Shown piece by piece: positions 48,022-59,764 of a DNA stretch of 64,000 nucleotides (position 1 is the stretch's first letter; every line of letters begins with the position of its first letter). The position numbers were made by a program, and so were the translations under genes. The notes beneath the pieces were generated by a model. That model did no database searches. It saw only the letters and a list, made by a program, of their open reading frames with translations, and was not told where the DNA came from. The DNA comes from Ancylobacter tetraedralis (GTDB lineage Bacteria > Pseudomonadota > Alphaproteobacteria > Rhizobiales > Xanthobacteraceae), in contig NZ_JACICD010000001.1 of assembly GCF_014195655.1 (NCBI RefSeq), positions 224,682 through 288,681 on the forward strand. The letters are read 5' to 3'.

Positions 48022-48918
48022 CTACCGCGTCGCCGCGTCCAGCCCGAGGTCGAGGATCGGCGCGGAATGGGTGATCCAGCCGACCGAGATGAGATCCACC
48101 CCGCTCGCGGCGATGGGCCCCACCGTCTCCCGAGAGACGCGGCCCGACGCCTCGGTGAGGGCGCGCCCGCCGACGATGGCGACGGCCTGCGCCAGCATGG
48201 CGGGGGTCATGTTGTCGAGCAGCACCGCGTCGACTCCCTCCGCCATCGCCTCGTCCAGCTGGGCGAGCGTGTCGACCTCCACCTCGATCTTCACGAGATG
48301 CCCGGCATGGGCCTTGGCGCGCCGGATGGCGATGGCGACGCCGCCGGCCACCGCGATGTGGTTGTCCTTGATCAGCACCGCATCATCCAGCCCGAAGCGG
48401 TGGTTGGAGCCGCCGCCCGCCTTCACCGCGTGCTTCTCCAGCGCGCGCAGGCCGGGCGTGGTCTTGCGGGTGCAGACGATCTGCGCATGCCCGTGCCGGC
48501 GGGCGATCTCGACGAGGCCGGCCGTGGCGGTGGCGATGCCCGACATGCGGCAGGCGATGTTCAGAGCCACCCGCTCGGCGGTGAGGATCGAGCGCGCCGC
48601 GCCCGACAGCCGCAGCACCTCATCGCCGGGCACCACCACGCTGCCATCGCCGCGCGTGACCGCAACCGTGAGCGCGGGGTCGATCAGCGCGAAGGCGATC
48701 ACCGCCGCATCGATGCCGGCGATCACGCCCGGCTGGCGCGAAGCGATCACCGCCTCGAAGCGGGCATCGGCCGGCACCACCGCATCGGTGGTGACATCCC
48801 CGGCGCGGCCGAGGTCCTCCAGCAGCGCGGCGCGCACGAGGGGCTCGACCAGCAGGCGGGGCAGGGGGGGCAGATGGGGCAGGGGGGAAAGCGTGGTGGT
48901 GGGAGAGGGCGAGGTCAT
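48022..48918 (-). CDS. nadC: Nicotinate-nucleotide (quinolinate) pyrophosphorylase
   Basis: Converts quinolinate and PRPP to nicotinate mononucleotide, CO2 and pyrophosphate; 298 residues. Conserved blocks: [71 protein letters not shown] and [13 protein letters not shown]. The ATG at 48918 follows normal length; a longer frame is a Pro-rich leader. Third gene of nadA-nadB-nadC, 82 bases behind nadB with a palindrome in the gap. Confidence 0.95.
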
Positions 48919-48946
48919 GGGCCTACTCGTCTCGGGATGATTTGGG

Positions 48947-48962
48947 CACCCGCCGGCGGGTG
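48947..48962. repeat. 16-bp perfect palindrome between nadB and nadC
   Basis: CACCCGCCGGCGGGTG, extended imperfectly by GGGC on the left and GGCGCCC on the right, 29 bases before the nadC start. It may be an intra-operon hairpin tuning nadC expression or a small repeat. Confidence 0.4.
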
Positions 48963-49000
48963 GGCGCCCCTGGCAAGGAGCGCCATCGGCTCCGGCCGGC

Positions 49001-50536
49001 TCAGGCCACCTGCCGCACATGGGTGGGGCGGGCGGCGGCCAGCGCACTCTCCGAATGGCGGGCGAGGGCGGCGGGGGCGGGATGATCGGTGCGGAAATGC
49101 CCGCCCCGGCTCTCGGTGCGGTGTAGCGCGGCTTCCGTGACCATTCTTGCGACGAGCGAAAGGTCGTCGCCATCCCGCGCGTTCAGCTCGCCGAGCCGCT
49201 GCACCGCGGCGTCCAGCATCGACGCCTCGCGGACCACGCCGACATGACTATCCATCAGCGCGCGGATTTCCGCACGGGCGGACGAGCCGACCGGGGCCGG
49301 GGAGGGCGCGCGGGCGATTCCCGCGCCGGCCTCGCTGCCGGCAATGTCGGCGGCGATCCATTCGGCATAGGCCAGCGCCTCCAGCAGCGAGTTGCTGGCG
49401 AGGCGATTGGCGCCGTGCAGGCCGGTCGAGGCCACCTCGCCGCAAGCCCACAGGCCCGCCACGCTGGAGCGACCGCAATCATCCACGTTGATGCCGCCCA
49501 TGTGGTAATGCGCCGCCGGCCGCACCGGAATGGGCTGGTGCGCCGGATCGAGCCCGTGCGCGCGGCAGAGCGCGGCGACGCCGGGAAAACGCCGCCCCAC
49601 ATCCGTCCGCCGCGCGTCGAGCACCACGTGGCGGCCTGCCGCGTTCTGCGCGAAGATGGCGCGGGCGACCACGTCGCGCGGGGCGAGTTCCTGCCCCGGC
49701 ACCTCCATCATGAAGCGCTCGCCGCGATCGTTGAACAGCTTCGCCCCCTCGCCGCGCAGCGCCTCGGTCGCCAGCGGCATGGGTGCGGGGCCGCCCAGAA
49801 GATCCGCCCCGGCCGGATTGGCGGCGGTGACGATCGCGGTCGGGTGAAACTGCACGAATTCCAGGTCGCGCAGCATGGCGCCTGCCCGCGCCGCGAGCGC
49901 GAGGCCGGAACCGACGGCGCCGAGCGGGTTGGTGGTGGAGGCGTAGAGCCCTCCCAGCCCGCCGGTCGCCAGCACCACCGCACGGGCCGGCAGGCCGGTC
50001 ACACGCCCGGCACGGTCGCGCAGGGCGATGCCGCGCACGGTGCCGGCCTCGTCGGTGAGCAACTCGCTGGCGCGCACGTCCTCGATCACCGCGATCGTCG
50101 GGCAGGCGCGCGCGGCCTTCACCAGCGTTTCCAGCACGAGGCGCCCGGTGCCGTCGCCCCCGGCATGAACGATACGGCGGCGCGAATGGGCGGCCTCCAG
50201 CCCGAGCGCGAGGGCGCCATCGGGCGCGCGGTCGAACGGCGTGCCCAGTTGCACCAGCCAGTCGATGGCACCGGGCGCCGCCGCCACGATGCGCCGCGCC
50301 ACCTCGGGTTCGGACAGGCCGGCGCCGGCCTTGAGCGTATCGATGGCGTGATAATCGGGCCGGTCATCATCGCCCAGCGCGGCGGCGATGCCACCCTGCG
50401 CCCAGCCGGTGGCGGCCTCGGCGCCGAGCGGGGCGGCGACAATGAGCGTGACGGGAAGCGGCGCAAGGCGTAGCGCGGTGGCGAGGCCGGCGACCCCGCC
50501 GCCGACCACGACGATATTCTCGGGCGAATGGCGCAA
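49001..50536 (-). CDS. nadB: L-aspartate oxidase
   Basis: FAD enzyme oxidising L-aspartate to iminoaspartate for NAD synthesis; about 511 residues. The FAD loop IVVVGGGVAGLATALRLA begins near residue 7. The succinate-dehydrogenase-like blocks HAGGDGTGRLVLETL, FVQFHPTA, GPAPMPLATEALRGEGAKLFNDRGERFM and AAHYHMGGINVDDCGRSSVAGLWACGEVASTGLHGANRLASNSLLE are present in order. The TTG at 50536 with AAGG nine bases upstream, just after the nadA stop, is the best start; no ATG is available near the domain border. Confidence 0.94.
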   Translation of the reverse strand: MRHSPENIVVVGGGVAGLATALRLAPLPVTLIVAAPLGAEAATGWAQGGIAAALGDDDRPDYHAIDTLKAGAGLSEPEVARRIVAAAPGAIDWLVQLGTPFDRAPDGALALGLEAAHSRRRIVHAGGDGTGRLVLETLVKAARACPTIAVIEDVRASELLTDEAGTVRGIALRDRAGRVTGLPARAVVLATGGLGGLYASTTNPLGAVGSGLALAARAGAMLRDLEFVQFHPTAIVTAANPAGADLLGGPAPMPLATEALRGEGAKLFNDRGERFMMEVPGQELAPRDVVARAIFAQNAAGRHVVLDARRTDVGRRFPGVAALCRAHGLDPAHQPIPVRPAAHYHMGGINVDDCGRSSVAGLWACGEVASTGLHGANRLASNSLLEALAYAEWIAADIAGSEAGAGIARAPSPAPVGSSARAEIRALMDSHVGVVREASMLDAAVQRLGELNARDGDDLSLVARMVTEAALHRTESRGGHFRTDHPAPAALARHSESALAAARPTHVRQVA

Positions 50537-50549
50537 CGCAGGAAGCCTT

Positions 50550-51638
50550 TCAGGAAATGGCGAGCATGCGCTCGACCGCGCGGCGGGCCCGGTCGGCAAT
50601 GGCCGGGTCGATCTCGACCGCGTGGGTCATCGTCTCCAGTGCCCGGCGGATATTGGGCAGCGTGATCCGCCGCATGTGCGGGCACAGGTTGCAGGGGCGC
50701 ACGAACTCGATGTCGGGGTGGTTCACTGCGACATTGTCGGCCATCGAGCACTCGGTGATGAGCACCACGCGGGCCGGCTTCTCGTCGCGCACGTAATCCG
50801 CCATCCCGGCGGTGGAGCCGGCATAGTCCGCCTCTGCCACCACCTCGGGCGGGCATTCGGGATGGGCGAGCACGACGATGCCGGGATGGGCTTCGCGCAG
50901 ATCGCGAATATCCTGCGGGTTGAAGCGCTCATGCACCTCGCAATGGCCCTTCCAGGCGATCAGCTCGAGCTCCGGCACCTGTTTCTGCACATTCTGCGCG
51001 AGATACTCGTCCGGCAGCATGAGGATGCGGTTGACGCCCCATTCCTTCGCCACGGCGCGCACCACCTTCACCGCGTTGCCGGAAGTGCAGCAATAATCGC
51101 TCTCGGCCTTCACCGCGGCCGAGGTGTTGACATAGGTGATCACGGGCACGCCGGGATAATGCTGGCGCAGCAGGCGGATATCTTCCGCCGTGATGCTCTC
51201 GGCCAGCGAGCAGCCCGCCTGCATGTCCGGCATCAGAACGGTCTTGGAGGGGTTCAGCAGCTTGGTCGTCTCGGCCATGAAGTGCACGCCGGCCATGACG
51301 ATGACGTCGGCGTCGATCGTCACCGCCTCGCGGGCCAGCGCGAGGCTGTCGCCGACGATGTCCGCCACCGTGTTGAAGATTTCCGGCGCCTGGTAATTGT
51401 GCCCGAGCACCACGGCGTTGCGCTCGCGCTTGAGCCGCTCGATGGCCTCCACGTCGCGCGCGATCCGCGGCCACTCGGCCAGGGTGATGTGGCGCGACAC
51501 CCGCGCATAGAGATGAGCCAGCGGCAGCGTGGAGGCGACGTCGCGCGCGACGGCAGGCGCGACGGCAAGCGCGGCAACGGAAACCGGGGCGAGGTCCTCG
51601 GCCGGCTCGACACGGGCGGCGGGGTTCATGTCCAGCAT
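50550..51638 (-). CDS. nadA: Quinolinate synthase A (4Fe-4S)
   Basis: Condenses iminoaspartate with dihydroxyacetone phosphate to quinolinate; 362 residues. [57 protein letters not shown] and the C-terminal [17 protein letters not shown] supply the conserved cysteines for the oxygen-sensitive cluster. A GGGAGGG RBS lies upstream of the ATG at 51638. First gene of the nad operon, preceded by two identical-form dyads (51650-51734). Confidence 0.96.
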
Positions 51639-51649
51639 CGCACCCTCCC

Positions 51650-51734
51650 TTATGCTCTTTTTGAGTATAATATGGGTCAAAGAAGACCGGGCGACGTGCC
51701 CGGCATTTCGAGCTTATGCTAGGACTGAGTATAA
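51650..51734. promoter_or_regulatory. Two matching operators upstream of nadA
   Basis: Site 1 (51650-51670) and site 2 (51714-51734) share TTATGCT, five variable bases, then TGAGTATAA; each is a near-perfect dyad (TTATgCT against AGTATAA). They are 64 bases apart and enclose the nadA promoter region. Alphaproteobacterial NAD genes are known to be controlled by NrtR- or NadQ-type repressors with paired dyads; which protein binds here cannot be told, as no such gene is adjacent. Confidence 0.7.
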
Positions 51735-51752: not shown

Positions 51753-52298
51753 TCACAAAGCCGATGAAGGTGGCGGGGGCGGTTCCAGTGGGGCATCGCC
51801 GCTGGCGGGCGGGGTGGCGCCATGCCGGCGCACGGGCACGCCGGCGCGGGCTTCGATGAAGCGCTCGATCGGCAGCGCCAGCACCAGCAGCATCAGGGTG
51901 ACGGCGATGCCCATGACGATGAGGTGCCAGGAGGCGAGGGCGCAGGCGATGCCGAGCGCCGCCGTCACCCACACGGTGGCGGCCGTGGTGAGGCCATGCA
52001 CGCGGCTGGAATGGCGCTTGTGCAGCACCACCCCGGCGCCGAGAAAGCCGATGCCGGTCATGATGCCCTGGATGATGCCCTGCACCACGCGGCTGGTGGC
52101 GTCGGGATGGCCGGCAATGCCATCGACCCGCATCGCGGTAAGGGCGACCAGCGCCGCGCCCATCGCGACCAGGCCGAGCGTGCGCATGCCGGTCGGCTTG
52201 CCGCGCAGGTCGCGGTTGATGCCGATGAGCATGCCGCAGACCGCCGCCACCAGCAGGCGGAACAGGGCCTCAATATCGTGTGGCGACATCAGGTCCAT
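51753..52298 (-). CDS. MgtC/SapB-family membrane protein
   Basis: A 181-residue protein with four to five hydrophobic segments in the conserved MgtC layout: LFRLLVAAVCGMLIGINRDLRGKPTGMRTLGLVAMGAAL, GIIQGIMTGIGFLGAGVVLH and HGLTTAATVWVTAALGIACALA. The C-terminal domain of long MgtC is missing; instead there is a short Pro-rich tail. Members are linked to magnesium starvation and ATP-synthase control. Apparently monocistronic; the gene ends 19 bases before the nadA operator. Confidence 0.9.
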   Translation of the reverse strand: MDLMSPHDIEALFRLLVAAVCGMLIGINRDLRGKPTGMRTLGLVAMGAALVALTAMRVDGIAGHPDATSRVVQGIIQGIMTGIGFLGAGVVLHKRHSSRVHGLTTAATVWVTAALGIACALASWHLIVMGIAVTLMLLVLALPIERFIEARAGVPVRRHGATPPASGDAPLEPPPPPSSAL

Positions 52299-52407
52299 GG
52301 CGATCTCTTGGGGCGATGGTCGTCGCGGCAGGCGACGTTCGTCCACGTGACGTGCGCCGATGCCGCCACCCGGTCAAGCGCCCGCCCGCCCGTGCGTGCC
52401 GCCGCGA

Positions 52408-52866
52408 TCAGTCGGTCCGGCCGATCCGGGCGATCAGCGCCTCGACCGCCTGCGCGTAACCCTCCGGCCCAAGGCCGAAGACGCAGCCCGTCACCACGGC
52501 GGAGAGCGGCGAATGATGGCGGAAGGGCTCGCGCGTGAACACGTTGCTCACATGCACCTGGATCGCCGGTTTCGCGATGGCGGCGAGCGCGTCGCGCAGG
52601 GCGATGGACGTGTAGGAGAGGCTGCCGGCATTGATGACGATGCCGTCCGCCGTGCCGCGCGCCTGCTGCACCCAGTCGACCAGTTCGCCCTCACAGTTCG
52701 ACTGGCGGAAATCGACGCTGCCGCCCTGCGCCTGCGCGCGTGCGCGGCAGGCCTGCGCGATGTCGTCCAGCGTCAGCGCGCCATAGGGCCCGTGCGGGTC
52801 GAGCCCGTAGAGATTGGTGTTGGGCCCGCTGAGGATCAGGATATGGACCGGCCGGGGCGCGCTCAT
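52408..52866 (-). CDS. AroQ-like (type II dehydroquinase fold) protein with altered active site
   Basis: 152 residues, the type II dehydroquinase length and fold: ILILSGPNTNLYGLDPHGPYG, NCEGELVDWVQQA, NAGSLSYTSIALRDAL, QVHVSNVFTREPFRHHS. The catalytic tyrosine (HGPYG), the asparagine (NAG) and His in HVSN are kept. The catalytic Arg expected at the GxREP position is Asp (GLDP), the histidine of THTS is Tyr (SYTS), and the Glu before HxS is Gln. It is unlikely to be the housekeeping shikimate enzyme. Last gene of the catabolic operon, its ATG overlapping the GlcG-like stop. Confidence 0.85.
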   Translation of the reverse strand: MSAPRPVHILILSGPNTNLYGLDPHGPYGALTLDDIAQACRARAQAQGGSVDFRQSNCEGELVDWVQQARGTADGIVINAGSLSYTSIALRDALAAIAKPAIQVHVSNVFTREPFRHHSPLSAVVTGCVFGLGPEGYAQAVEALIARIGRTD

Positions 52867-53288
52867 GGGGTCTGATCCTGCGCGCCGATGGCGGCCAGCC
52901 CCGCGCGGGCGACCTCCACATCCTGCGCCCCCGTGCCCGAGCCGACGCCGATGCCGCCGACGCACGTGCCGTCAAGGAGGATGGGCAGCCCGCCCTCGAG
53001 ATTGGTCAGGCGCTGCCCGGCGGCCAGCGACAGCTTGATCTCGTCCGCCGGGTTCAGCCGCGCGGAGGGCTGGCGGTGCGAGGCGGCGGTGATTGCCTTG
53101 GACAGCGAGGTCTCGCGCGACAGCAGCCTGGCGCCGTCCATGCGAACGAAAGCCAGCAGGTTGCCGCCCTCGTCGACGATGGTGATGTTCTGCGGCACGC
53201 CAAGTTCGTTCGCCCGGGCGACGGCGGCGGCCAGCATGACGAGCGCGCCGGCATGGGTCAGCTTGAGCGCGGGACGGGTGAACGGCAT
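52863..53288 (-). CDS. GlcG/HbpS-family protein
   Basis: About 141 residues of the GlcG/HbpS (heme-degrading/adduct-binding) family: LTHAGALVMLAAAVARANELG, NITIVDEGGNLLAFVRMDGA, SLSKAITAASHRQPSA and GLPILLDGTCVGGIGVGSGTGAQDVEVARAGLAAI. The function is poorly defined; these genes recur in catabolic operons and may be ring-cleavage or tautomerase-like accessories. Cytoplasmic here (no signal). The ATG at 53288 has GAGG eight bases upstream; one at 53306 is possible. Coupled to the AroQ-like gene by a 4-base overlap. Confidence 0.83.
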   Translation of the reverse strand: MPFTRPALKLTHAGALVMLAAAVARANELGVPQNITIVDEGGNLLAFVRMDGARLLSRETSLSKAITAASHRQPSARLNPADEIKLSLAAGQRLTNLEGGLPILLDGTCVGGIGVGSGTGAQDVEVARAGLAAIGAQDQTP

Positions 53289-53312
53289 GGGACTGGCCTC
53301 GCTCATCAGGGG

Positions 53313-53990
53313 CTATCGATCGCCCGGCACGCCATAGGACGGCGCCGTGGTGGGGTCGAGCGCGCGGGTGACATAGGCGTCCATCTGCGGCTTCCACAGC
53401 GCCCATAGCGCGGCAAGCTCGGCCATCACGTCGCCCTCCGACCAGTCGATCCGCAGATCCGCGACCGGCCACGCCACCGTGTCGACGATCAGGAGGCCGG
53501 CCGAGTGCACCGGCCCGGCTTCGCCGCCGGCCGCCACGCCCGCCTGCATCGCCGCCACCAGCCGGTCGCCGAGATCGGCCTCGGGCAGCGCCTCGAAGGC
53601 CGCGACCATCGCCGCCGGCACGTCCGTCGAGGCGAGCAGGTTGCCCGCTGCCGCCACGTCCCGGCCATGGGCGATGGCGTGGGTGCCGAGCGTCTTCGCC
53701 CCCGAATGGCCGGCGGCCGGCCCCTGGCGGCCCAGCACGACGACCTGCCGGTAGTCGAAGAACGGCGCTTCCTGCGCGAAGCGCGCCAGCACCTCGTCGG
53801 GCGACAGGCCGCTCGCCAGCAGATCGAGCCCCTTGGGGCCGAGCGTCGGGTCGGTGATGTTCTGCGTGGAGACCACGCCGATGCCGGCGCGGGCATGGGC
53901 GCAGCGCGCCGCCACTGCCGGCGAGGAGGAGGAGACGGCGATGCCGAACCGGCCGGTGGCGGCGCAGCGGGCGGAGATGGAGAAGGTCAC
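53313..53990 (-). CDS. DUF1028 Ntn-hydrolase-like protein
   Basis: 225 residues of DUF1028. It begins MTFSISARCAATGRFGIAVSSSSPAVAARC and continues GIGVVSTQNITDPTLGPKGLDLL, QVVVLGRQGPAAGHSG and NLLASTDVPAAMVAAFE. Members have an Ntn-hydrolase fold and are frequently encoded next to RidA and amidase genes, suggesting hydrolysis of an amide or similar bond during degradation of nitrogen compounds. GTG start with GGGAGG upstream, 13 bases after ridA. Confidence 0.87.
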   Translation of the reverse strand: MTFSISARCAATGRFGIAVSSSSPAVAARCAHARAGIGVVSTQNITDPTLGPKGLDLLASGLSPDEVLARFAQEAPFFDYRQVVVLGRQGPAAGHSGAKTLGTHAIAHGRDVAAAGNLLASTDVPAAMVAAFEALPEADLGDRLVAAMQAGVAAGGEAGPVHSAGLLIVDTVAWPVADLRIDWSEGDVMAELAALWALWKPQMDAYVTRALDPTTAPSYGVPGDR

Positions 53991-54003
53991 GCGCGCCTCC
54001 CGC

Positions 54004-54423
54004 TCAGGCGGCGTCGGGGATGACGGCCGTCACCTCGATCTCGACCAGCCATTCCGGCCGGGCCAGCGCCGAGACCACGAGGCCGGTGGAGACCGGGAAC
54101 ACGCCCTTCAGCCACTTCCCCATCTCCTGGTACACCGCCTCGCGGTGGCGGATGTCGGTGAGGTAGATCACTACCCGGCAGATGTGGCTGAGGTCGCTGC
54201 CCGCTTCCTCCAGCAGCATCTTGATGTTGGCCATCGCCTTCTCCGCCTGCTTGCCGGCATCGCCGACATGGAGGCTCTCGCGCGTGTCGAGGTCCTGCGC
54301 GATCTGCCCGCGCAGAAACACCATGGTGCCCCGCGCCACCACGGCCTGGCACAGATCATTGTCGAGCTTCTGCTCGGGATAGGTGGCCCGGGTGTTGAAG
54401 GGGCGGATGCGCGTGTGGACCAT
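54004..54423 (-). CDS. RidA/YjgF-family imine deaminase or hydrolase
   Basis: 139 residues. VFLRGQIAQDLDT, GKQAEKAMANIKMLLEEAGSDLSHICRVVIYLT and RPEWLVEIEVTAVI are the RidA-family blocks, but the canonical catalytic Arg of the C-R-hydrophobic region reads ALARPEW, so it may be one of the Rid subgroups other than RidA. Such enzymes hydrolyse reactive enamines/imines or aminoacrylates, like RutC in pyrimidine degradation. Cytosolic, fifth gene from the 3' end of the operon. Confidence 0.88.
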   Translation of the reverse strand: MVHTRIRPFNTRATYPEQKLDNDLCQAVVARGTMVFLRGQIAQDLDTRESLHVGDAGKQAEKAMANIKMLLEEAGSDLSHICRVVIYLTDIRHREAVYQEMGKWLKGVFPVSTGLVVSALARPEWLVEIEVTAVIPDAA

Positions 54424-54462
54424 GGCGGGGTTCTTTCGGGGGTAAGGCTCTTTCGGGGGCGG

Positions 54463-55680
54463 TTAGTCGGTCAGGTCGAGCGGTTCGCTCAAGCGGGCGG
54501 CGAGGCGCTCCATCATGCGGCACGCGGCGGCGAGTTCGTCGAGGCCGATCCACTCGTCCGCCTTGTGCGCCCGGGCGATGTCGCCCGGCCCGCAGACCAG
54601 GGTGGCGATACCGGCCGCATGATAGAGGCCCGCCTCCGTGCCGAAGGCGAGGGTCACGGGTGGCTCGCGGAAATCGGCCAGCGCGGAAACAAAGCCCAGC
54701 GCGGCGCTGTCCGCTTGCGTGTCGAGCCCGGGATAATCGCTGAGCGTCTCCACCACGATGTCCGCCTCCGGGGCCTGCACGTGCAGTCGCGCGCGGGCCT
54801 CCGTCAGGATCGCATCAAGGGCCGCGTTGAGGGCGCCGATATCGGTGCCGGGCAGGGTGCGTGCCTCGAATTCGAGCGTCGCGCGGTCCGGCACCAGGTT
54901 GAGGGCGCTGCCGCCATGAAGGGAGCCGACATGCAGGCTCGCATAGGGCGGCTCGAAGGCGGCGTCGGTGGTGGCGCGCAGCGTGCGGCCGAGCGCGAAC
55001 AGCCCGCTCGCGACCTCGGTGGCGGCTTCCACCGCATTGGCGGCGCGGTGCAGCAGGGCGGAGTGCCCGCCGCGCCCGGTGACGGTGACGCGGCGGGCGA
55101 ACTTGCCCTTGTGCGCGCGGGCGACCTTCATCCCGGTCGGCTCGCCGACGATGCAGAGAACCGGGGGCACGGGCAGGTTCGCCACCTCCCGCACCACATC
55201 GGGCGCGCCGAGGCAGCCCAGTTCCTCGTCATACGAGAAGCACAGATGCACCGGCGTCGCGGTCGCCGCCCGCGTGAAGGCACCGACCTGCGCCAGCACG
55301 ACGGCGAGGAAGCCCTTCATGTCGGTGGCGCCGCGCCCATAGAGGCGGCCGTCGCGAATGTCGGCGCGGAACGGCTCGCTCGCCCAGTCCTGCCCCGCCA
55401 CCGGCACCACGTCGGTATGGGCGGAAAGCACGATGCCCGGCCGCTCCGTTGGGCCGATCGTGGCAAGGAGCGAGGCCTTGTCGCCGGCTTCATTCGGGAT
55501 GAGCCGGCTGGCGATGCCGTGACGGGCGAGATGATCGGCGATGAAATGGAGGATCGGCAGGTTCGTGCCGGCGCTGACCGAGGGAAAGGCGATGAGCTGG
55601 CCGAGCAGGTCGATGACGGCGCCGTCCGGCATGCCGGGCGCACCTCCTGCCAGATCTCGCGCCCGCGCCTCGCTCGGCAT
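54463..55680 (-). CDS. ArgE/DapE-type metallo-deacylase (M20 family)
   Basis: 405-residue M20 metallohydrolase resembling acetylornithine deacetylase. Zinc ligands: His in VLSAHTDVVPV, Asp in LYGRGATDMKGF, the catalytic/ligand pair in CFSYDEELGCLGA, and C-terminal His in IARAHKADEWIG. GGRGGHSALLHRAANAVEAA marks the dimerisation domain. Given the neighbours it probably removes an acyl group from a catabolic intermediate rather than from N-acetylornithine. The start gives 3 bases' gap from the flavin reductase stop. Confidence 0.88.
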   Translation of the reverse strand: MPSEARARDLAGGAPGMPDGAVIDLLGQLIAFPSVSAGTNLPILHFIADHLARHGIASRLIPNEAGDKASLLATIGPTERPGIVLSAHTDVVPVAGQDWASEPFRADIRDGRLYGRGATDMKGFLAVVLAQVGAFTRAATATPVHLCFSYDEELGCLGAPDVVREVANLPVPPVLCIVGEPTGMKVARAHKGKFARRVTVTGRGGHSALLHRAANAVEAATEVASGLFALGRTLRATTDAAFEPPYASLHVGSLHGGSALNLVPDRATLEFEARTLPGTDIGALNAALDAILTEARARLHVQAPEADIVVETLSDYPGLDTQADSAALGFVSALADFREPPVTLAFGTEAGLYHAAGIATLVCGPGDIARAHKADEWIGLDELAAACRMMERLAARLSEPLDLTD

Positions 55681-55683
55681 GCG

Positions 55684-56175
55684 TCAGGCGACCTCGAGTT
55701 TGTGATAGGCGCGGTTGGAATAGACCAGCGGCTTGGCCGCGTCGCTCGCCAGCGCCAGCACCTCACCGGCGATGATGTGATGCGTGCCGAACTCGAACAC
55801 GCCGGCGATCCGGCAGTCGAAGCGGCACAGCGCCCCCATCAGCACCGGCGAGCCGGTGTGCAGCCGCTCCCACTGAGCCACCGCGAAGCGGTCTTCCGCC
55901 AGCTCGGGGATCAGGCCGGCGAAGCTGTCGGCCACCCGGTGCTGGCCATGCGCGAGGATGTTGGCGGCAAACACGCCGTTGGCGATCAGCGTCGGCAGGG
56001 TGCGGCTGCCCTTGTTGAGGCAGAACAGCACCGAGGGCGGTTCCATCGACAGCGAGCAGAGCGAGGAGACGGTGACGCCCGCCCGTCCCGCCTCGCCGTC
56101 CGTGGTGACCACGGTCACGCCCGAGGCCGTGCGGCCCATGGCTTCGCGAAACAGGGCGACGTCGATCCCGCTCAT
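55684..56175 (-). CDS. Flavin reductase (HpaC-like)
   Basis: 163 residues of the flavin-reductase-like domain, which uses NAD(P)H to supply free FADH2 to a partner monooxygenase: FREAMGRTASGVTVVTTDGEAGRAGVTVSSLCSLSMEPPSVLFCLN, FAANILA and GSPVLMGALCRFDCRIAGVFEFGTHHIIAGEVLA are conserved. The start overlaps the monooxygenase stop by four bases, the tight coupling usual for two-component flavin monooxygenases. Confidence 0.93.
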   Translation of the reverse strand: MSGIDVALFREAMGRTASGVTVVTTDGEAGRAGVTVSSLCSLSMEPPSVLFCLNKGSRTLPTLIANGVFAANILAHGQHRVADSFAGLIPELAEDRFAVAQWERLHTGSPVLMGALCRFDCRIAGVFEFGTHHIIAGEVLALASDAAKPLVYSNRAYHKLEVA

Positions 56176-57626
56176 TTCCCGGTCCCCATTACCTGGTCCG
56201 ACAGGCCGGCCGCCTTGCGCACGAAGTCGAGCGGGCCGGAAAAGTCGAAGGCGTTGTACACCGCATTGAGATGGTTGAAATGCGGCGCCTGCGCGAACTG
56301 CACGAAGGTCAGGCGGTGGCCGGCATAATCGGAATTGAGCAGGTCGCGGGCGAAGGCGAGCAGCTTGCGCCGGTCCTCGGATTCCCACTGCTTGTTCAGC
56401 GAGTAGAATTTCTTCAGCCACTCGCCCGAGCCTTCCGCCTCGAAGGCGGCGGCGTTCGGCGTCACGCAGATCTGCCCGCCGCACAGTTCGCGGGCGATGT
56501 GCATCATCGCCGGCAGGTTGGCGCAGGCGTGGATGCGCCCGGCATAGAGCATCGACTGGTTGGGCATCAAAAGCCCGCCGGGGCTCTTCTCCGCCAGCGT
56601 GATGGATGCGGTGAGGTGGGCGTTGATGCCCTCGCGGTAGCACACGAGATCGGCGAGCTTCTCGCGCACCGATTGCAGCTTTTCGAGCCCGGTCTGCCGG
56701 GCGTTGAACATCGCCGCGCCGATCATCATGTCGGCGACGTAGAGCAGGCGGTGCACATAGGGGAAGGCCGAGTAGCGGTGCAGCGTCGCGCGCACGAACT
56801 GCGCCGCCTTGGTGTGGCGGTAGAAGAACACGTTCTCCCAGGGGATCAGCACGTTGTCGAAGATGACCAGCGATTCCACCTCGTCGAACCGGTTGGCGAG
56901 CGGGTAGTCCTTCGGATTGGTGCGGCCGGCGAAGGAGGAGCGGCAGATCTGCCGCACGCCCGGCGCGCCCATCTCGATGATGCCGCCCACCGCGTAATCG
57001 GACAGCGTCTCGTTGGTCCACGCGCCGACGGTTGGCTTGAGGAAGGCCTGGTCGGCATAGGCCGCGGCGGTTTCGTATTTGGCGCCGCGGATGATGATGC
57101 CCGCGTCTGTCTCCTTCACGACATGCACCATCATGTCGGGATCCTGATCCTGCGGGGCGAGCGAACGGTCGCCCTTGGGATCGGTGTTGGCCGAGACATG
57201 GAAGATGTCGTTGTCGAAGATGTTCTGCACGTGCCGGTCGACATTGTCGGCGAAGCGGGGGTCAAACTCCGCCAGCACGTCGCGCCCGTCCATGAGCGAC
57301 CAGACTTCGCCGATCGTCTCGTCGCCGACGCGGGTCACCACGCCGCCAATGTCCTGCATGACCGCATCGACGGCGGCGATCTTGTCGCTCCAGTCCTTCG
57401 TCTCGCGCGGCGGCTTGTAGAAGATGGTGTTGCGCTTGTTGTCCTCGACATAGGTGAGGCGGTCCTGGTAGCGCGCCTCATGCGCCATGTCGTACATGCG
57501 CGCCCGCACGTCGACGATCGGCTTGAAGGAGGGATGCTGGGTGACATCCTTCACCCGCTCGCCGTCCATCCAGATCTCGCGGCCGTCCTGGAGACCCTGC
57601 CGGTACGCGTCGCCTGTGCGGATCAT
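56172..57626 (-). CDS. FADH2-dependent monooxygenase, HpaB family
   Basis: 484-residue oxygenase with an acyl-CoA-dehydrogenase-like fold. MIRTGDAYRQGLQDGREIWMDGERVKDVTQHPSFKP is the classic HpaB start. Further blocks are DPDMMVHVVKETDAGIIIRGAK, SSFAGRTNPKDYPLANRFDEVESLVIFDNVLIPWENVFFY and GGQICVTPNAAAFE. The family hydroxylates phenols (4-hydroxyphenylacetate, chlorophenols) or pyrrole-2-carboxylate with FADH2 from a separate reductase. First gene of the operon, divergent from its LysR gene. Substrate unknown; none of the usual homoprotocatechuate genes follow, so it is not the ordinary hpa pathway. Confidence 0.9.
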   Translation of the reverse strand: MIRTGDAYRQGLQDGREIWMDGERVKDVTQHPSFKPIVDVRARMYDMAHEARYQDRLTYVEDNKRNTIFYKPPRETKDWSDKIAAVDAVMQDIGGVVTRVGDETIGEVWSLMDGRDVLAEFDPRFADNVDRHVQNIFDNDIFHVSANTDPKGDRSLAPQDQDPDMMVHVVKETDAGIIIRGAKYETAAAYADQAFLKPTVGAWTNETLSDYAVGGIIEMGAPGVRQICRSSFAGRTNPKDYPLANRFDEVESLVIFDNVLIPWENVFFYRHTKAAQFVRATLHRYSAFPYVHRLLYVADMMIGAAMFNARQTGLEKLQSVREKLADLVCYREGINAHLTASITLAEKSPGGLLMPNQSMLYAGRIHACANLPAMMHIARELCGGQICVTPNAAAFEAEGSGEWLKKFYSLNKQWESEDRRKLLAFARDLLNSDYAGHRLTFVQFAQAPHFNHLNAVYNAFDFSGPLDFVRKAAGLSDQVMGTGK

Positions 57627-57674
57627 GCGGTGCTTCCTTTTCCTGTCAGGAAATATTGCGCTTTCCCCATGGAT

Positions 57675-57739
57675 CGATAAAATATTATCGTTCGTTCCTC
57701 GAAATAGAAAATTCTGATGCGAGATAGAGAATTCGGATG
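57675..57739. promoter_or_regulatory. Dyad and paired direct repeats in the divergent promoter
   Basis: CGATAA-N4-TTATCG (57675-57690) is a perfect dyad. Two 16-base direct repeats, ATAGAaAATTCtGATG (57704-57719) and ATAGAgAATTCgGATG (57724-57739), start 20 bases apart, two helical turns. The second ends on the LysR start codon. The region probably holds the recognition and activation sites of the LysR protein for the monooxygenase operon. Confidence 0.6.
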
Positions 57740-58681
57740 AATGTCTCGCTCCGCGCGCTGCGCTACGTGGTGACAACCGCCGATTTCGGCAACCTGACCG
57801 AGGCGGCACGGCACCTCAACGTGTCCCAGCCCTCGATTTCGGCCGCCATCGCGCAGTTCGAGGCGGAATGCGGCGTGCAGCTCTTCGTGCGCCATCATGC
57901 CAGGGGCGTCACCACCACCATGGCCGGCACCCGCATCATCAACGAGGCGCGGCTGCTGCTGAACCATGCGCGGGATTTCGGCCAGAACGCGCGGGCGATG
58001 GCCGACGAGGTGCGCGGCGAGATCGCGGTGGGCTGCTTCTGGACCGCCGCCACCCATTTCATGCCGGGCCTGCTCACGCGCTTCGCGCAGAGCCATCCGG
58101 GCATCACCGTGCGCCTCGATGAGGGCGACCAGCAGCAGATCCTCGATGCGCTGGTGTCGGGGCGCACCGAGCTCGCTCTCTCCTACGAATTCGCGCGGCC
58201 CGAGGAGGTGGTGGCCGAGCCGCTCGCCGAACTGCCGCCCTATGCCGTGCTGCCCGCCGACCATCGGCTCGCGCAGCGCGAGCGCATCAGCCTCGCGGAG
58301 CTTGCCGGCGAGCCCTTCATCCTGCTCGACCTGCCGCACTCGCGGGACTATTTCATGAGCCTGTTCCGCGCGGCGGGGGTGGAGCCGCAGATCGCCTTTC
58401 GATCAAGGGTCTACGAGCTGACGCGTGGGCTGGTCGGGCAGGGGCGGGGCTACACCATCCAGAACGTGCTGCCGCGCACGCAGATCACCCATGATGGCGG
58501 GCGCGTCGCCGCCGTGCCGTTGACCGACCGGCTGGAGCCGGTGCGCCTTGTCAGCCTCAAGCTGCGCCGGCAGGCGCCGCGCCCGGCGGTGGAAGTGTTT
58601 GCCCGCCATCTCGCGGCGTCCTTCGCGCCGGGTGGGCTGTTCGAGCCGGGCACGCTCTCGCCGCATGCCACGGTCCGCTGA
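57737..58681 (+). CDS. LysR-family regulator of the catabolic operon
   Basis: 314-residue regulator. The winged helix starts MNVSLRALRYVVTTADFGNLTEAARHLNVSQPSISAAIAQFE. The effector domain from about residue 90 (GEIAVGCFWTAATHFMPGLL) includes DEGDQQQILDALVSGRTELALSY, recalling LysR proteins of aromatic and amino-sulfonate degradation. Divergent from the HpaB-like gene by 110 bases with repeats between. It probably activates the operon in response to its substrate. A hydroxyacid dehydrogenase gene follows 147 bases later on the same strand. Confidence 0.92.
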   Translation: MNVSLRALRYVVTTADFGNLTEAARHLNVSQPSISAAIAQFEAECGVQLFVRHHARGVTTTMAGTRIINEARLLLNHARDFGQNARAMADEVRGEIAVGCFWTAATHFMPGLLTRFAQSHPGITVRLDEGDQQQILDALVSGRTELALSYEFARPEEVVAEPLAELPPYAVLPADHRLAQRERISLAELAGEPFILLDLPHSRDYFMSLFRAAGVEPQIAFRSRVYELTRGLVGQGRGYTIQNVLPRTQITHDGGRVAAVPLTDRLEPVRLVSLKLRRQAPRPAVEVFARHLAASFAPGGLFEPGTLSPHATVR

Positions 58682-58828: not shown

Positions 58829-59764
58829 ATGAGCCGTGAGGCGCTGGTTTTCTACAGCCCGGTCGATAGTTCGGCGGCGTGGCGCGAGGCGCTGACCGCC
58901 GAGCTTCCCGACCTCGATTTCCGCGTGGACCCCGAGGTGGGCGACCCCGCCGATATCCGCTATGCCCTTGTCTGGCTGCCGCCGCGCGGCTTCTTCGCGC
59001 GCTTTCCCAATCTTCAGCTCGTCACCAATCTGGGCGCGGGCGTCGATGCGCTGCTCGGGCGCGATGATCTCGTGCCCGTCAGGTTTTCCCGCCTCAACGA
59101 TCCCGGCATGACGGCGATGATGACGAGCTATGTCGTCTTCGCCGTCACCCGCTACGCCCGCGACATCCCGGTATTCGAGCGGGCCAAGCGGCGCGGCGTG
59201 TGGGACTATGTCCATCCCCGCCCGCTGGCCGACATCAAGGTCGCGGTGCTGGGGCTGGGGGAACTCGGCGCGCCGGCGGCGCGGGCGCTGGCCGGCATGG
59301 GCTACACCGTCACCGGCTGGTCGCGCTCGCCGAAGGACATTCCCGGCGTCGCCTCCGAGACCGGGCGGGAGGGGCTGGAGCGGGTGCTCGCGGATAACGA
59401 GATCATCGTCAGCCTGCTGCCCCTGACGCCGGATCTGCGCGGCATTCTGGGCGCGCGGGAATTCGCGCGGATGCCGAAGGGCGCGAAATTCATCAATGCC
59501 TCGCGCGGCGCTGTGGTCGACGAGGCGGCGCTGATCGGCGCCCTGCGCTCGGGCCAAGTCGCCGAGGCGACGCTGGACGTGTTCGAGACCGAGCCGCTGC
59601 CGCCCGATCATCCCTTCTGGACGCTCGACAACGTGCTGATCACCCCGCACCTCGCCAGCATCACGGTGCCTAAGCTGGCCGCGCGCGACGTGGCGCAGAG
59701 CATCCGCCGGATGCGGCAGGGACTGGCGCCGCTGCACGAGGTCGATCCCGCCCGCGGCTACTGA
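58829..59764 (+). CDS. D-2-hydroxyacid dehydrogenase (glyoxylate/hydroxypyruvate reductase GhrA-like)
   Basis: 311-residue NAD(P)-dependent reductase of glyoxylate/hydroxypyruvate. Rossmann loop VAVLGLGELGAPAARALAGMG. The catalytic trio is Arg in FINASRGAVVDE, Glu in LDVFETEPLPPDHP and His in ITPHLASIT. The first block PSPVDSS-type N-terminus (FYSPVDSSAAWREAL) and PNLQLVTNLGAGVDALL are GhrA-like. It could reduce an oxo acid released by the adjacent catabolic operon, but it may simply be a neighbour. Its stop runs into the facing GGDEF/EAL gene. Confidence 0.9.
   Translation: MSREALVFYSPVDSSAAWREALTAELPDLDFRVDPEVGDPADIRYALVWLPPRGFFARFPNLQLVTNLGAGVDALLGRDDLVPVRFSRLNDPGMTAMMTSYVVFAVTRYARDIPVFERAKRRGVWDYVHPRPLADIKVAVLGLGELGAPAARALAGMGYTVTGWSRSPKDIPGVASETGREGLERVLADNEIIVSLLPLTPDLRGILGAREFARMPKGAKFINASRGAVVDEAALIGALRSGQVAEATLDVFETEPLPPDHPFWTLDNVLITPHLASITVPKLAARDVAQSIRRMRQGLAPLHEVDPARGY

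Follow-up and report, generated by a model that had tools for sequence, protein, structure and literature searches.

Organization of the operon

A 64,000-nucleotide stretch of the genome of the soil bacterium Ancylobacter tetraedralis, referred to here as the window, contains seven co-directional genes on the minus strand (52408-57626) whose products probably convert imidazole-4-acetate (ImAA), or a closely similar imidazole acid, to aspartate and formate. A preliminary description of the window had recognized a catabolic operon at this place, a single-strand unit of seven genes with gaps of −4 to 39 bases and a divergent LysR gene, and its open reading frames (ORFs), codons and Pfam families were confirmed. 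Start and stop codons are in place, all Pfam matches named below lie above the gathering score, and the spacings in gene order, beginning with the HpaB gene, are −4, 3, 39, 13, 6 and −4 bases.

The first gene (56172-57626) codes for an HpaB-type FADH2-dependent monooxygenase (HpaB_N and HpaB) and overlaps by four bases with the gene of its flavin reductase partner (55684-56175; Flavin_Reduct). They are followed by genes for an ArgE-type M20 amidohydrolase (54463-55680; Peptidase_M20 and M20_dimer), a RidA-family protein without the deaminase arginine (54004-54423; Ribonuc_L-PSP) and a DUF1028 protein with a GTG start codon (53313-53990; DUF1028). The unit ends with a GlcG/HbpS-like protein (52863-53306; HbpS-like) and an AroQ-fold protein with an altered active site (52408-52866; DHquinase_II), whose genes again overlap by four bases. 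On the plus strand, a LysR regulator gene (57737-58681) diverges from the operon across a promoter region at 57627-57736. A GhrA-like D-2-hydroxyacid dehydrogenase gene (58829-59764, plus strand; 2-Hacid_dh_C), overlooked in the preliminary description, travels with the cluster and lies near HpaB in 41 of 62 distinct full-flank loci.

The oxygenase pair differs from phenol hydroxylases

The HpaB-type protein scores below both HpaB equivalog cut-offs (221.5 versus 480.2 bits for HpaB-1, 161 versus 885.2 bits for the second model). In Thermus HpaB, we take Arg100, Tyr104 and His142 to be the residues that bind the phenol hydroxyl group. The arginine is kept in all 77 aligned rows, and the positions of the tyrosine and the histidine are occupied by Glu or Asp and by Ser, respectively, in 77 of 77 rows. 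The best NCBIfam match of the reductase is RutF, at 148.2 bits with a cut-off of 254.75, and the HpaC model is likewise below its cut-off. Fold and two-component make-up are those of the HpaBC and TftD/HadA phenol hydroxylases, but the HpaB of the window falls into a separate clade, has replacements at phenol-binding positions and is linked to hydrolases that would suit a nitrogen heterocycle. A search of the open-licence PubMed Central (PMC) literature at the level of titles and abstract beginnings, which is weak evidence of absence, found no HpaB-type ImAA oxygenase among the papers listed.

A predicted hydrolytic module of M20, RidA-like and DUF1028 proteins

The M20 protein exceeds the cut-offs of PRK07522 (446.9 versus 412) and TIGR01892 (358.2 versus 297.7) and carries the metal-site motifs, whose residues are presumably metal ligands. 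Its assignment as an M20 deacylase in the preliminary description holds at the level of the family, and an N-formylaspartate deformylase would be a better fit than a generic deacylase.

In an alignment with solved Rid proteins, the RidA-like protein shows the motif Ser/Cys/Phe-Thr-Gly at the position of Arg105, which we take to be the residue that binds 2-imino acids in Rid deaminases. Arginine is missing there in all 63 rows, and Thr-Gly is invariant. RidA-like proteins linked to an FMO-type oxygenase share the motif (Ser in 27, Thr in 31 and Gly in 31 of 31 rows). With the RutC model the window protein reaches 34.5, at a cut-off of 169.1.

All 55 DUF1028 rows have threonine as the second residue. 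The AlphaFold model (pLDDT 88.9) matches the DUF1028 structure 2imh with a TM-score of 0.80 and, weakly, proteasome and HslV subunits with TM-scores of about 0.4-0.5. As Thr2 is invariant and the model weakly resembles proteasome/HslV subunits, the data support a predicted N-terminal nucleophile (Ntn) hydrolase with a threonine nucleophile. The term DUF1028 was not found in the open-licence PMC literature. Among plasmid records with DUF1028, 105 of 270 are from Klebsiella.

The divergent regulator resembles HinK

By similarity, the divergent regulator is of the HinK type. In a phmmer comparison it reached 243 bits with 3fzv and 242.7 bits with 6m5f (HinK), at 38-39% identity, and the next solved LysR protein outside these two scored 93.8 bits as a C-terminal fragment. 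Foldseek with the LysR model returned 6m5f, titled 'Crystal structure of HinK', as top match. These comparisons are independent of the neighbourhood searches described below. HinK is a LysR regulator that recognizes ImAA, according to an excerpt of PMC8231116. In the promoter region, a ATATTTTA block followed by two bases and GATC is kept in 18 of 18 rows, comprising the window and 17 relatives.

Conservation of the gene set

The comparative search for the gene set proposed in the preliminary description covered 126 fetched loci. HpaB of this clade occurs in 77 of them, and 63 of these have flanks of 8 kb or more in both directions; as L160 is the same locus as L007, 62 of the 63 are distinct. 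The other 14 loci have short flanks. The HpaB loci were fetched by HpaB itself with near relatives included, and are therefore not independent; highly similar loci of Ancylobacter and Bradyrhizobium, identical or nearly so, stayed in the set. Across the 62 distinct full-flank loci, HpaB is accompanied by RidA in 57, DUF1028 in 52, the flavin reductase in 47, AroQ-like in 42, GhrA-like in 41, a PotD-type binding protein in 36, M20 in 32, GlcG in 31, GST in 26 and HutD in 16. After removal of 15 Ancylobacter-type rows (n = 48), the counts are 43 for RidA, 38 for DUF1028, 33 for the reductase, 28 for AroQ-like, 27 for GhrA-like, 23 for M20 and three for HutD. As a control, annotation and tblastn revealed RidA, DUF1028 or M20 within 8 kb of an out-of-clade HpaB (29% identity) in none of four loci. 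The grouping of the genes is more than chance.

The nearest HpaB by name, at 99% identity, comes from A. amanitiformis. HpaB was detected at E ≤ 1e-100 in 25 of 198 genomes of the family sample, including ten of the 12 genomes listed from the same genus. A scan of named genomes, with patterns limited to close relatives, gave 71 loci with HpaB relatives, distributed over Alphaproteobacteria, Betaproteobacteria-labelled bins, one Arenicellales bin and three Bacillota. In plasmids, whose annotations were used as distributed and are incomplete, 15 records contain an HpaB match above 50% identity. A bin labelled Bordetella parapertussis, a species label that may be wrong, has an HpaB at 71% in the same arrangement as a Betaproteobacteria-labelled bin (L060 and L059, respectively). 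On a Paracoccaceae plasmid (L083, 9001-10425), a more distant HpaB (37%) occurs with carboxypeptidase G2-like M20, RutC-like and NtaA-like genes and a polyamine-type importer; this cluster is perhaps another catabolic variant.

The AroQ-like protein stays below the TIGR01088 cut-off (159.1 versus 169.85 bits), yet exceeds two subfamily cut-offs (162.7 versus 130 and 154.4 versus 146). At the lid arginine position, Arg is found in none of 46 rows and Asp in 41, and the active-site histidine is replaced by tyrosine in all 46; we take both positions to be dehydroquinase active-site residues. By cut-off and by active site, the protein differs from type II dehydroquinase (AroQ). The GhrA-like protein scores 200.9 bits with the GhrA model, whose cut-off is 403. 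Rieske oxygenases are present in four loci (L040, L064, L085 and L107), and the copy in L107 is weakly similar to glycine betaine monooxygenase.

The hydrolytic module occurs with histamine genes

In P. putida, PMC6467879 assigns, in the part available, HinF as an FAD-monooxygenase (EC 1.14.13.5), HinG to EC 3.5.1.8, HinH as an amidase, HinI as an aspartate ammonia-lyase and HinL as an enamine deaminase. The hin2 operon is hinFLHG, corresponding to PA5393 to PA5390 in PAO1, and its product is aspartic acid, as stated in an excerpt of PMC8231116. Loci with an FMO-type oxygenase would resemble this operon of P. putida U and P. aeruginosa PAO1 in the order of oxygenase, RidA-family protein, putative amidase and putative peptidic-bond hydrolase. 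The FMO-fetched set comprised 24 loci, from 20 of 31 matching genomes and from four plasmids. RidA was present in all 24, DUF1028 in 23 and M20 in 18, and the prevailing arrangement was FMO-RidA-DUF1028-M20. Plasmid records with an FMO-type oxygenase at E ≤ 1e-60 are from Klebsiella in 475 of 733 cases.

On plasmids, RidA and DUF1028, mostly together with ArgE, accompany HpaB, an FMO-like NAD(P)/FAD oxidoreductase or both, and some plasmids combine RidA and DUF1028 with a Rieske protein and FMO in one locus. Several such loci contain a 690-residue 'FAD-dependent oxidoreductase' and aldehyde dehydrogenases. The Shinella oxidoreductase close to RidA-DUF1028-ArgE aligned with histamine dehydrogenase 6de6 at 1516.8 bits over 693 amino acids, and that of Parasedimentitalea, whose locus also carries an HpaB of the clade described here, at 1253.2 bits; the corresponding scores with trimethylamine dehydrogenase were 527 and 541 bits. 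Where plasmid records contain histamine dehydrogenase at ≥76.5% identity, DUF1028 is located within 10 kb in at least 14 of 18. The search with histamine dehydrogenase matched 36 genomes, ten of which were examined, and 102 plasmid records, three of which were examined by that route. Among the loci fetched in this way, RidA and DUF1028 are nearby in four of seven at ≥70% identity and in none of six at 56-62%.

Three of these plasmid clusters, from Shinella (L105), Leisingera (L147) and Haematobacter (L106), share RidA and DUF1028 with the window. Those of Shinella and Leisingera also have an ArgE-type M20, a LysR gene and an ABC importer with an extracellular binding protein. Unlike the window, all three carry histamine dehydrogenase and aldehyde dehydrogenase. 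The Haematobacter and Leisingera clusters use an FMO-type oxygenase, and the FMO gene of the Shinella plasmid is 42 kb away.

Genes that would serve the flanking steps of a histamine pathway occur around the module in other organisms as well. In Arthrobacter, one cluster comprises copper amine oxidase, aldehyde dehydrogenase, LysR, FMO, RidA, DUF1028, M20 and aspartate ammonia-lyase. Next to the cluster of Burkholderia multivorans lie FdhD and an FdhF-type gene. L192 and L204 both encode class III aminotransferase and aldehyde dehydrogenase, and L197 has FdhD. Downstream of reductase, HpaB, FAD synthetase, RidA and DUF1028, Bacillus badius encodes permeases, a class III aminotransferase and an aldehyde dehydrogenase, and FdhD is also present. 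In Pseudalkalibacillus, the genes that follow encode a carbamoylase-type M20 and an aspartase that exceeds the curated cut-off. Aspartase lies near HpaB in L073, L078 and L082. In a Bacillota bin, reductase and HpaB are separated by an arginase-family gene, which would fit a formimino compound.

Exchange of two oxygenases on a shared module

A DUF1028 tree of 91 rows (52 linked to HpaB, 30 to FMO, three to both and six to neither) requires nine changes of the HpaB label, at least six of which are forced by starred branches. One starred clade of 25 rows unites 23 HpaB-linked rows, the listed ones including Ancylobacter L019 and L020, with those of Shinella and Roseateles, in which histamine dehydrogenase is plasmid-borne. 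Komagataeibacter (HpaB) is grouped with Acetobacter (FMO) at 100/99, and Oceanicella (HpaB) with L207 (FMO and histamine dehydrogenase) at 96/81. These label changes and mixed pairs indicate that the FMO and the pair of HpaB and reductase have been exchanged for one another on a module that both share.

Genes flanking the operon

ORFs resembling nadC, nadB and nadA by their translations adjoin the operon on the same strand (48022-51680, minus), with an MgtC-family gene (51753-52346) between them and the operon. Directly after the GhrA-like gene lies a PAS-GGDEF-EAL ORF (cluster C19; 59758-62013, minus), whose Pfam domains were determined on the copy in L010. In related Ancylobacter loci (upstream in L008-L012), a PAS-GGDEF-EAL homologue is found beyond an ABC importer, and HutD stands beside the LysR gene. 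Since those loci have both there, importer and HutD appear to have been lost in the window strain and in A. amanitiformis.

Proposed pathway

We propose that the operon is a counterpart of Pseudomonas hin2 in which HinF has been replaced by HpaB and its reductase. The window would share with hin2 the HinK-type LysR regulator, by similarity, a RidA-family protein and aspartate, the hin2 product, as its end product. The place of HinF, a single FAD-monooxygenase, is taken by two components, the M20 gene stands before RidA, and AroQ-like, GlcG and GhrA-like genes are additional; a match to aldehyde dehydrogenase, aspartase or class III aminotransferase is missing in the window.

The reductase would supply FADH2 to HpaB, a putative imidazole-4-acetate hydroxylase that would hydroxylate the imidazole ring at C5 to give imidazolone-4-acetate. 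Subsequently, the Ntn-type DUF1028 protein, with its N-terminal Thr2, would act as a HinH-like lactam hydrolase and open imidazolone-4-acetate to N-formiminoaspartate. The formimino C=N bond would then be hydrolysed by the HinL-like RidA protein to N-formylaspartate and ammonia, and the HinG-like ArgE-type M20 protein may finally release formate and aspartate. The HinK-type LysR regulator would sense ImAA and control the divergent promoter. All steps are deduced from sequence and gene context.

Several observations weigh against an ImAA pathway of this kind. M20 is near HpaB in just 32 of the 62 loci and DUF1028 in 52, and five loci have neither RidA nor DUF1028. Three of the seven dehydrogenase loci at ≥70% identity (L151, L152 and L154) are devoid of both, too. 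The Arthrobacter oxidase has phenylethylamine oxidases as its best solved relatives. That HinH is a DUF1028 protein and HinF a member of the FMO family is inferred from gene order and names. Most relatives were, moreover, retrieved with the very genes that were then counted. In the 64 kb window, histamine dehydrogenase, aldehyde dehydrogenase, aspartase, HutD and the importer binding protein were searched for and gave no match. In the A. tetraedralis genome, histamine dehydrogenase was not found at E ≤ 1e-200 (three of 20 candidates scored), and the sole aspartase/fumarase relative is a 42% match. The binding protein, detected in eight of the 31 genomes searched, was found neither in the window strain nor in A. 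amanitiformis. HpaB and an FMO-type oxygenase occur together in three loci (L080, L082 and L203), and therefore HpaB may act otherwise there. AroQ-like, GhrA-like and GlcG are found in none of 35 FMO loci and GST in one; they are superfluous for ImAA, and the substrate may therefore be a modified imidazole.

The FMO of the Haematobacter plasmid has no match in the window, nor in the A. tetraedralis genome at 1e-120. A TIGR04046 hit in this genome (G000:C2, 685 bits) was considered as HinF; it is probably another family member, because three oxygenases occupying the HinF slot score 337-378 bits, below the TIGR04046 cut-off.

Alternative substrates

The accessory genes make a related imidazole acid the strongest competitor of ImAA. 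The HpaB branch might handle a modified or neighbouring compound, such as imidazole-lactate or a methylated imidazole-acetate, and share the hydrolytic final steps, while the AroQ-like, GhrA-like, GST and GlcG proteins perform extra steps. The occurrence of AroQ-like (42 of 62) and GhrA-like (41 of 62) in HpaB loci, compared with 0 of 35 FMO loci for each, the coexistence of both oxygenases in three loci and the Rieske oxygenases in some are consistent with this possibility. However, the HinK-type regulator and the repeated exchange of the oxygenases suggest one substrate, the accessory difference may in part reflect the unlike taxa and flank lengths of HpaB and FMO loci, and Pantoea has the accessory genes although the stretch covered contains neither oxygenase. 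On balance, we regard a modified imidazole as possible, if unlikely. It is doubtful, in a broader version, that HpaB and its reductase, together with AroQ-like, GhrA-like, GST, GlcG and the polyamine-type importer, would constitute an undescribed pathway that acts on an imidazole compound different from ImAA and joins the histamine pathway at the ring-opening module, with DUF1028 as lactam hydrolase and the arginine-less RidA as formimino hydrolase.

The preliminary description had favoured a nitrogen heterocycle, for example a pyrrole- or pyridine-carboxylate, or an N-acylated phenol. A nitrogen heterocycle opened by oxygenase and hydrolases remains the probable substrate class, with ImAA replacing the compounds named as the best candidate. 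Catabolism of homarine or trigonelline was an initial lead and was abandoned, as nothing in the literature searched ties either compound to these genes. In the case of pyrrole-2-carboxylate, HpaB would produce 5-hydroxypyrrole-2-carboxylate, DUF1028 would open the lactam and RidA would hydrolyse 2-iminoglutarate to 2-oxoglutarate, which accounts for oxygenase, reductase, lactam hydrolase and Rid protein. This second lead was demoted after the linkage to M20, aspartase and histamine dehydrogenase emerged and is now improbable: M20, aspartase, histamine dehydrogenase, aldehyde dehydrogenase, the formate genes and the HinK-type regulator are left unaccounted for, and the RidA-like protein lacks the arginine that binds 2-imino acids. 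In its favour, the pyrrole-2-carboxylate monooxygenase is counted among the two-component group D flavin enzymes in the part of PMC6165268 available. An operon for 4-hydroxyphenylacetate or a phenol, already held unlikely in the preliminary description, is scarcely credible despite the HpaB and flavin reductase folds, given the scores below both equivalog cut-offs and the replacement of two of three phenol-hydroxyl residues in every row. A ring-cleavage dioxygenase, present at the out-of-clade Rhodococcus and Bradyrhizobium plasmid HpaB loci, was not found in the ten neighbouring proteins scanned.

The co-occurrence of monooxygenase, reductase, RidA and hydrolases had been taken in the preliminary description as Rut-like logic, and the best NCBIfam match of the reductase is indeed RutF. 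By descent, however, the operon is not Rut-like; the nearest relatives found are those of the histamine hin2 operon, and for that reason imidazole is preferred as substrate. A pathway for pyrimidines or a related uracil compound is highly improbable: the oxygenase family and the hydrolases of the window differ from those of Rut, the Rid protein lacks the catalytic arginine and is far under the RutC cut-off, the reductase is below that of RutF, RutA, RutB, RutD and RutE families are not among the matches listed for nine genes, and the context is one of histamine genes.

If the operon degrades ImAA as proposed, the committed ring-hydroxylation step of histamine and ImAA catabolism would have at least two unrelated, interchangeable solutions on a shared hydrolytic module, and DUF1028 and the arginine-less Rid branch would gain concrete, testable functions. 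ImAA catabolism would then extend to many soil- and plant-associated Alphaproteobacteria and to some Bacillota that searches for HinF-type oxygenases would overlook.

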